DNA of 64,000 nt, taken from Sediminicola sp. (GTDB lineage Bacteria; Bacteroidota; Bacteroidia; Flavobacteriales; Flavobacteriaceae). The stretch is from assembly GCA_024643325.1 (NCBI GenBank), contig JAHEND010000035.1:1-64000 (forward strand). Reading direction: 5' to 3'. Below the pieces are notes generated by a model. That model was not told where the DNA came from. It searched no databases and saw only the letters and a list, made by a program, of their open reading frames with translations. Both the position numbers and the translations under genes were made by a program. Positions 62,534 to 64,000 of the stretch are shown piece after piece; position 1 is the stretch's first letter; each line of letters opens with the position of its first letter.

Positions 62534-62554
62534 TGGAAACATATACAGCCTGTC

Positions 62555-62586
62555 AAAAAAGCCGCTCCGTTTGAGCGGCTTTTTTG
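62555..62586. terminator. Bidirectional intrinsic terminator
   Basis: aaaaaagccgctc-cgttt-gagcggctttttt. Confidence 0.92.
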
Positions 62587-62695: not shown

Positions 62696-62703
62696 TATAT
62701 TTG
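62696..62703 (+). promoter_or_regulatory. TANNTTTG -7 element of a Bacteroidetes-type promoter
   Basis: tatatttg about 20 nt upstream of the leader ORF start; no clear -33 TTTG, only tttt. Confidence 0.5.
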
Positions 62704-62722: not shown

Positions 62723-62818
62723 ATGCCATTTTCACTTCGTATTGAAACTACAGGCACTCGTAATCTAACGAGCACATTTGCTATGACTACTACTACAGGA
62801 ACCCCTTTGGGGTACTAG
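62723..62818 (+). CDS. Threonine-rich leader peptide MPFSLRIETTGTRNLTSTFAMTTTTGTPLGY (putative thr operon attenuator leader)
   Basis: 31-aa ORF with 10 Thr, 54 nt upstream of thrA; overlaps small hairpin accccttt-ggggt. Confidence 0.75.
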   Translation: MPFSLRIETTGTRNLTSTFAMTTTTGTPLGY

Positions 62819-62872
62819 ATGATTACTTCCGCAACCTATTTATTTATTTATTTTATTTTTAAAAACTAACCC

Positions 62873-64000
62873 ATGAATGTTTTAAAATTCGGTGGTACCT
62901 CAGTAGCCAACGCACAAAATATCAGTCTTGTAAAAAATATCGTTCAACAGAACACCTATAAAAAACAATATGTTATTGTTTCTGCACTTGGTGGCGTAAC
63001 GGATTTATTACTTGAAACCGCCGCTTCAGCAGCCCATCAAGATCCCCAATACAAAATACCCTTAAACGAGATTGAAAAAAGACACTTAGACACGGTAAAA
63101 TCTCTGATTCCAACCAATGATCAGGCTGGAATCTTAAGCCAGATTAAAGCGGCATTAAACACCTTAGAAACCCTTTTAGAAGGAGCTTTCCTCATCGGAG
63201 AAATAACACCAAAACTCTCAGACAAAATAGTGAGCTTTGGAGAACTATTGTCCTCTTATATTATCAGTGCTTACTTTAAGTCTCAAGGCTTAGACGCCCT
63301 TCATGCAGACGCGAGAACACTCATCACCACAGACCATTTACACGGTAAAGCAACTGTTAACTACCCCCTCACCAATCAAAAATTGAAAGCATTCAATGGG
63401 GACAATAAAAACGCTATTGTAGTGATGGGTGGCTTTATTGCTTCTAGCACAGATGGTGTTGCAACTACACTAGGAAGGGGTGGTTCAGATTTTACTGCAG
63501 CCATAGTGGCAGCTGCTCTAGACGCAGTATTGCTTGAAATATACACCGACGTAAGTGGGATGTTTACCGCCAATCCAAAATTGGTAAAGCAAGCCAGACC
63601 CATCATTAGCATTTCATATGAAGAGGCCATGGAGTTGTCTCATTTTGGCGCTAAAGTGCTCTACCCCCCTACCATTCAACCGGTATTACAAAAGCAAATT
63701 CCTATTGCCATTAAAAACACTTTTGACCCTCAGGCGGTAGGTACACTAATTCAAAAACAAACTTCAGAAGGAAACAAAACAGTGCAAGGCATTAGCCACG
63801 TAGAAAATATGGCCTTAATTTCTTTAGAAGGACCAGGCATGGTTGGTATTCCAGGAATATCTAAAAGATTTTTCGAAGTGCTCTCCAATGCAAAAATAAG
63901 TGTGGTATTAATTACTCAAGCTTCTTCAGAACATTCTATCTGTGTGGGTATTGCTGCAGAAGACACTTCAGCCGCAGTGGCACTCGTAAATGAAGCCTTC
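62873..64000 (+). CDS. thrA: Bifunctional aspartokinase/homoserine dehydrogenase I, N-terminal part (runs off window)
   Basis: MNVLKFGGTSVANAQNISLVKNIVQQ; VVMGGFIASSTDGVATTLGRGGSDFTAAIVAAAL; no stop before window end. Confidence 0.92.
   Translation, partial: MNVLKFGGTSVANAQNISLVKNIVQQNTYKKQYVIVSALGGVTDLLLETAASAAHQDPQYKIPLNEIEKRHLDTVKSLIPTNDQAGILSQIKAALNTLETLLEGAFLIGEITPKLSDKIVSFGELLSSYIISAYFKSQGLDALHADARTLITTDHLHGKATVNYPLTNQKLKAFNGDNKNAIVVMGGFIASSTDGVATTLGRGGSDFTAAIVAAALDAVLLEIYTDVSGMFTANPKLVKQARPIISISYEEAMELSHFGAKVLYPPTIQPVLQKQIPIAIKNTFDPQAVGTLIQKQTSEGNKTVQGISHVENMALISLEGPGMVGIPGISKRFFEVLSNAKISVVLITQASSEHSICVGIAAEDTSAAVALVNEAF

Follow-up and report, generated by a model that had tools for sequence, protein, structure and literature searches.

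The usual textbook account of amino-acid attenuation has the transcript choose between two structures, an antiterminator and an intrinsic terminator. Upstream of thrABC in a marine Flavobacteriaceae genome lies a short threonine-rich open reading frame (ORF) that ends at a small hairpin, and the question that this locus raises is whether this leader controls the operon by attenuation, as the sequence-only reading proposed by analogy with thrL of E. coli, and by what means it would do so. The phylum concerned, the Bacteroidota, has unusual promoters and makes little use of Shine-Dalgarno sites.

A threonine-rich leader ORF upstream of thrA

The stretch of DNA analysed here, called the window, is 64,000 nucleotides long and contains the thr locus with the features listed in Table 1. 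The product of thrA is a bifunctional aspartate kinase/homoserine dehydrogenase I (NCBIfam PRK09436.1 equivalog, 1037.8 bits), and the ORFs of 306 and 435 amino acids located 3' of this gene are read as putative thrB and thrC. The gene upstream of the leader matches Clp ATPase models with scores under the model cut-offs, and a terminator-like inverted repeat stands between this ClpC/ClpB-like gene and the thr leader. By thrA, the closest named relatives are uncultured Flavobacteriaceae, strain MS024-3C, followed by the Arenibacter/Maribacter/Zobellia group.

Table 1. Features of the thr leader region, with positions in the window
Feature	Position	Strand	Basis
Inverted repeat AAAAAAGCCGCTCCGTTTGAGCGGCTTTTTT of the ClpC/ClpB-like gene upstream, resembling an intrinsic terminator	62553..62585	+	read in sequence
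Bacteroidota -7 promoter box TATATTTG (TAnnTTTG)	62696..62703	+	sequence; same box in relatives
Leader ORF MPFSLRIETTGTRNLTSTFAMTTTTGTPLGY, ATG...TAG, 31 aa, 10 Thr	62723..62818	+	sequence; open frame kept in relatives
Control-codon run ACT ACT ACT ACA GGA ACC, codons 22-27	62786..62803	+	sequence; Thr+Ile enrichment in 71 leaders
Leader-end hairpin ACCCC-TTT-GGGGT (arms 62801-62805 / 62809-62813)	62801..62813	+	sequence; pairing kept in another family
Leader stop codon TAG, directly after the hairpin	62816..62818	+	sequence
Local counterpart ATTACTTCCGCAACC of the relatives' post-hairpin motif TATATATTCNTCCGTCC; diverged, without ATAT	62822..62836	+	comparison with relatives
T-rich tract tatttatttatttattttattttt, detached from the hairpin	about 62837..62861	+	sequence
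thrA, first gene of thrABC (814 aa in full)	62873..64000, runs past window end	+	profile match and sequence

The 31-codon ORF with ten threonines that the sequence-only reading placed between the promoter box and thrA is present as described. The window contains 462 ORFs of 15-70 codons that start with ATG, and this one is the richest of them in threonine (32%, with 24% in the runner-up and a background of 5.4%). The probability of at least ten threonines in 31 residues is 3.4e-6 per ORF, or about 0.0016 over all 462 ORFs, and in shuffled windows (n = 10) no ORF of 25-35 amino acids held more than six.

The promoter box sits 19 nt 5' of the leader ATG, and 59 of 71 relatives likewise have a TAnnTTTG box before the leader start codon, often at a distance of 16-21 nt, compared with 3.6% in shuffled sequences (single ATG). 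The sequence-only reading depended on transcription not starting downstream of position 62818, and the predicted box does precede the leader ORF, in the window as in these relatives; judging by this placement, transcription probably begins just upstream of the leader ORF. The motif TATATATTC was considered as a second promoter and rejected, as it has no G at the TAnnTTTG position.

The comparison set consisted of 84 thrA leaders from loci of the family and the class, selected for having the hairpin described below, 71 of which are non-redundant. A leader of the same design occurs at 27 of the 30 thrA loci that matched best in a set of 60 genomes and at 76 of the 80 best-matching named Flavobacteriaceae loci (Maribacter, Arenibacter, Zobellia, Cellulophaga and others); at a 77th (L245) the hairpin is visible in a sequence that ends at the contig end, and a recognisable hairpin is absent from three Pricia-like loci among these 80. 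A covariance model of the element, run on 151 genomes of the family, identified a single site in each of 50, and all 30 of the 30 sites retrieved lie upstream of thrA. In the window's own genome the sole match of this model at E<=10 is the thr leader, with no second copy at other operons.

In 83 of the 84 leaders the hairpin begins with a Thr codon read in the frame of a leader ORF, and the stop codon of this ORF follows within 24 nt. In the remaining leader (L023) the frame fits too, but the stop lies further on. The threonine at position 0 is partly a consequence of the search pattern, which required an in-frame arm beginning with AC but placed no demand on the adjacent positions. Frame 0, in which the hairpin opens, extends over a median of 36 codons and over at least 12 codons in 71 of 71 leaders, and its last ten codons contain on average 3.82 threonines, where the two alternative frames average 0.15 and 0.06. 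The combined fraction of Thr and Ile in the 71 leaders is 0.89 at codon -2, 0.86 at codon -1 and 0.59-0.69 at codons -6 to -4, and goes down to 0.1-0.4 further upstream. The alignment of Flavobacteriaceae thrA upstream regions that the sequence-only reading had proposed thus recovers a Thr-rich, and also Ile-rich, leader ORF conserved in the same place, and the Thr-codon enrichment on which that reading hinged is present in the homologous leaders and limited to the leader frame. These comparisons support the conservation of a Thr/Ile leader upstream of thrA across the Flavobacteriaceae and several other families of the class. The leader is a short ORF rich in codons for the operon's product and conserved upstream of the operon, features by which an attenuator is recognised, and its predicted role as a sensor of threonine supply is regarded as near certain. 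In one family (f27, L106-L111) thrA has no leader, and a conserved stretch ending in TTGTTTATTTTCGC lies directly before the gene; this stretch looks like a promoter that would leave only a very short 5' UTR.

A functionless ORF of low complexity that lies by chance beside a small hairpin would agree with the local RNA fold, since the 83-nt stretch at the window's leader folds no better than shuffled sequences (z 0.20). However, chance is refuted by the conservation of the leader in most thrA leaders of the family, by its frame and codon specificity and by the compensated hairpin, and hardly deserves any credence.

A short hairpin at the leader stop codon

The first triplet of the hairpin 5' arm is the in-frame Thr codon 27. 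Family-wide, the hairpin has the form ACCC(C)-loop-GGGGT, in which the first four pairs are near-invariant and the loop varies (TTT, ATT, TAT, CCT and others in named genomes). The stop codon is located inside the hairpin in 16 of the 71 leaders; it follows the hairpin directly or within 4 nt in 54, and lies at a greater distance in one. It is well supported by the aligned leaders that the last leader codons are Thr/Ile codons and that the stop codon lies in or beside a conserved short hairpin.

Evidence that the pairing itself matters comes from more distant leaders. Family f30 has swapped arms (ACGGG/CCCGT) with the stop codon forming part of a GTAA or GTGA loop, and the hairpin of L094 is CCCGG-TAA-CCGGG, so that the covariation check proposed with the sequence-only reading finds the pairing held despite arm swaps, which are few and, as f30 represents one lineage, are counted as one or two independent compensations and not as many. 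The residues encoded across the hairpin vary considerably (TPLG, TPWG, TLWG, TLRG, TPRG, TP*, TR*, TG*). Since the helix is kept while the encoded residues change, the peptide is not what is preserved, and judging by these substitutions the hairpin is under selection as RNA. A related proposal is that the hairpin and the motif downstream of it constitute the site of an RNA-binding protein, with the leader peptide being secondary. The primary sequence of both elements is indeed conserved within the family, but the Thr/Ile codons occur in one frame only and are crowded against the hairpin, and the arm swap in another family would not be easily tolerated by a sequence-specific protein, which makes a protein site improbable.

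Downstream of the hairpin, relatives contain a spacer of ~7-9 nt and an ATAT core, followed by a stretch rich in C; many of them read TATATATTCNTCCGTCC here. Within +4 to +20, ATAT or TATA occurs in 57 of the 71 leaders (20.7 +/- 3.6 in shuffles), and G is almost missing at +7 to +16 in the relatives' leaders. The sequence-only reading had the hairpin run into a T-rich tract; the hairpin was confirmed, whereas the tract tatttatttatttattttattttt starts 23 nt past it, is found in the closest relatives only and is not terminator-shaped. In his and trp leaders of related Flavobacteriales (L061-L087, L188-L217), the predicted leader helix often has ATAT 3-7 nt after it, resembling the thr leaders. 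This helix-then-ATAT arrangement, common to thr, his and trp leaders, is a possible pause signal, the spacing of which comes from a small sample and is suggestive only.

A second, AU-rich hairpin is located 3' of the stop-codon hairpin in L017, L020, L025, L045, L053, L118, L131 and their relatives, and is missing from the window's clade. Two or three of its pairs are changed on both sides (GTAAT/ATTAC, GTGAT/ATCAC, GCGAT/ATCGC). This hairpin was rejected as a 3:4 terminator, as no T-tract lies behind it and the window's clade does not have it. A switch in which its 5' arm would pair with the Thr/Ile codons (ATTACAA, in some species) was rejected as well, since this pairing does not track the arm changes (L131, L135), and so was a pairing, examined by eye, between the GGGGT arm and the TTCC motif further downstream, which is inconsistent between species.

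Terminators, competing structures and the output of the leader

A single terminator-scan rule was used on all leader sets (his, trp, classical thr and hairpin-type thr). With this rule, 0 of the 71 non-redundant hairpin-type leaders have an intrinsic terminator anywhere from the Thr codons to thrA, compared with 26 of 27 his leaders, 24 of 26 trp leaders and, in other families, 6 of 7 thr leaders of the classical kind; L155, a classical thr leader missed by the scan rule, is classical when read by eye. On the + strand at the window's thr leader the terminator scan detects none. The hairpin with the T-tract was therefore rejected as a terminator, the scan being negative and the hairpin being conserved where the tract is absent. 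Consensus folds of two aligned groups contain no conserved mutually exclusive antiterminator/terminator pairing, the feature on which the thrL mechanism turns: they show the stop-codon hairpin only, plus, in one group, the AU-rich covarying hairpin as an independent element. A 7-bp pairing in the window between AATCATC at the leader 5' end and GATGATT after the stop codon is broken in L003 and not conserved. Searches of the thrA upstream region with Rfam families (including Thr_leader RF00506, T-box and other cis-regulators) gave no match at the gathering threshold, and at relaxed E-values the sub-threshold matches lie over the clp terminator only and none over the leader.

These results bear directly on the thrL-type mechanism of the sequence-only reading, in which the ccccttt-gggg hairpin and the T-tract form an intrinsic terminator and an antiterminator forms on stalling. 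The Thr-rich leader and the hairpin do occur in the order that this mechanism requires, and family f53, also of this class, has true classical thr attenuators complete with intrinsic terminators (L112, L113, L117, L141, L142, L150). However, with no canonical terminator in any of the hairpin-type leaders, a detached and unconserved tract, no conserved antiterminator pairing in the two aligned groups and a hairpin conserved as one helix, this part of the earlier proposal was abandoned, and classical attenuation is now considered quite unlikely here. A further classical thr leader, L155, belongs to family f49, another genome of which has the stop-codon hairpin type (L093). The occurrence of both types within f49 implies that hairpin-type and classical thr attenuators are seemingly interchangeable.

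Other amino-acid operons of these genomes were inspected as well. The regions upstream of hisG (L068 in the window's own genome; L061-L087) contain classical attenuators with an HHHH-type leader, an antiterminator CTCAAGCGAGG versus CGTTTGAG, and a terminator with a T-tract. Those upstream of trpE (L209 in the own genome; L188-L217) are also classical, with a TGGTGGTGG leader and a GGCTTGTC...GACAAGCC-TTTT terminator. Upstream of ilvD (L160, L161, L168, L171 and others) there is no clear leader peptide, and the stretches TTGAATATGATAAAA ... CTTGAATACAG are conserved across genus relatives. Related genomes thus have classical attenuators for his and trp and the hairpin type without an intrinsic terminator for thr.

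The same sensor could in principle have a translational output, with stalling altering access to the thrA start or with thrA being reached by re-initiation after the leader. This requires no terminator, and terminator-less amino-acid leaders that act on translation are on record; the poly-Cys leaders of mycobacteria, which have no terminators, have reportedly been described experimentally as able to act on translation. Nevertheless, the predicted openness of the thrA start is equal with a free, a stalled and a terminating ribosome (0.56, 0.57 and 0.58, respectively), and sequestration of the start was rejected because openness does not change between these ribosome states. Moreover, the distance between the hairpin and thrA (60-175 nt) is too variable for coupling, and no conserved pairing extends to the thrA start. 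A translational output is thus regarded as unlikely, if less so than a classical terminator.

The interpretation that we favour, and hold to be more probable than not, is that the leader is a Thr-responsive (and Ile-responsive) leader-peptide attenuator of thrABC in a form without an intrinsic terminator. The conservation of the leader, its frame, its codon enrichment, the hairpin and the absence of terminators are observed directly, and translation of the ORF, ribosome stalling, RNA polymerase pausing and Rho action are the steps that we infer. When charged tRNA-Thr or tRNA-Ile is scarce, the ribosome would stall once one of the last few control codons occupied its A site, and its leading edge would lie over the 5' arm. 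The hairpin would then be blocked and RNA polymerase would proceed, leading to expression of thrABC. When the amino acids are plentiful, the ribosome would reach the stop codon and depart, the hairpin would close and expression would be cut off downstream. A ribosome spans roughly a dozen nucleotides past its A-site codon, and one waiting at codons -4 to 0 would therefore cover part or all of the 5' arm. The concentration of control codons at these positions is what favours the rule that a stalled ribosome holds the hairpin open and a departed one lets it close. As no conserved pairing that excludes the hairpin was found, the ribosome itself would have to set the ON and OFF states by steric occlusion. 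The model further requires that the ribosome be released promptly, given that the hairpin is opened too by a ribosome that occupies the stop codon. The loss of the ATAT core from the window's own copy of the downstream motif counts against this interpretation.

How expression would be cut off is best guessed as a hairpin-linked pause of RNA polymerase ~10-20 nt downstream, followed by the action of Rho on the ribosome-free, C-rich and G-poor leader; in starvation, the stalled ribosome would also shield the leader RNA from Rho. The rho gene is present in the genome. Between the hairpin and thrA, the 71 leaders have a C content of 0.181 and a G content of 0.088 (C:G 2.06), with C exceeding G in 67 of 71. 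The corresponding values are 0.145/0.126 (1.15) in window 5' regions, 0.159/0.165 (0.96) in his leaders and 0.181/0.137 (1.3) in trp leaders, and the excess of C over G, which the trp leaders share, is a weak indicator of Rho. By exclusion and base composition, a Rho output appears the favoured one. The full scheme, in which a terminator-less Bacteroidota thr attenuator uses a hairpin on its last Thr and stop codons to report whether the ribosome is stalled or gone, the output is a pause resolved by Rho, and the helix with the nearby ATAT is the pause signal, is put forward tentatively.

Comparison with known attenuators

The leader shares with E. coli thrL (Rfam RF00506, Thr_leader) a run of Thr and Ile codons in a short ORF just upstream of thrABC and the same presumed signal. 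It differs from thrL in having neither an intrinsic terminator nor a conserved antiterminator, in the location of the hairpin at the stop codon and in its lack of an Rfam match. Runs of cognate codons in the leader peptide are likewise common to the his and trp attenuators of related Flavobacteriales and to the classical thr attenuators of another family, all of which, unlike the hairpin-type thr leaders, mostly carry a GC-rich terminator with a T-tract.

Leader-peptide control in which the terminator is missing has precedents. The actinobacterial cys leaders described as 'without obvious terminators' encode leader peptides and were suggested by their authors to involve Rho (PMC1262725); they resemble the thr leader in having a run of cognate codons near the stop codon and no conserved terminator. 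In mycobacterial cys leaders there are no conserved potential-terminator hairpins (PMC1262725), whereas the thr leader has a compensated hairpin that overlaps or abuts the stop codon. With the tna operon of E. coli (tnaC-type Rho-dependent attenuation) the leader shares the proposed output, namely that Rho is denied access to the leader RNA while a ribosome is stalled on this RNA, and the untranslated RNA downstream of the leader is C-rich and G-poor as in tnaC-like systems. In tnaC, however, the ribosome stalls at the stop codon and the nascent peptide senses tryptophan, while the proposed stall in the thr leader would occur at control codons that lack charged tRNA.

Older comparative work on attenuation reportedly counted the Bacteroidetes among the groups with candidate attenuators. 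By 2010, a study presenting a case in Firmicutes stated that, before it, leader-peptide systems had not been found beyond Proteobacteria and Actinobacteria, save the atypical ermC leader (PMC2965389). In the same family as the genome analysed here, the transcriptome of Flavobacterium psychrophilum is reported to give strong indications of attenuation by leader peptides in front of amino-acid operons (PMC9723704), the main text of that study giving no leader architecture and no mention of thrA.

In all, related bacteria keep the classical design for his and trp, and across several families do without it for thr, of which the sensor and one hairpin are retained. If confirmed, this leader would be a small, naturally occurring example of control by a leader peptide with no terminator involved, and would explain why attenuator searches based on terminators would miss thr in such genomes.
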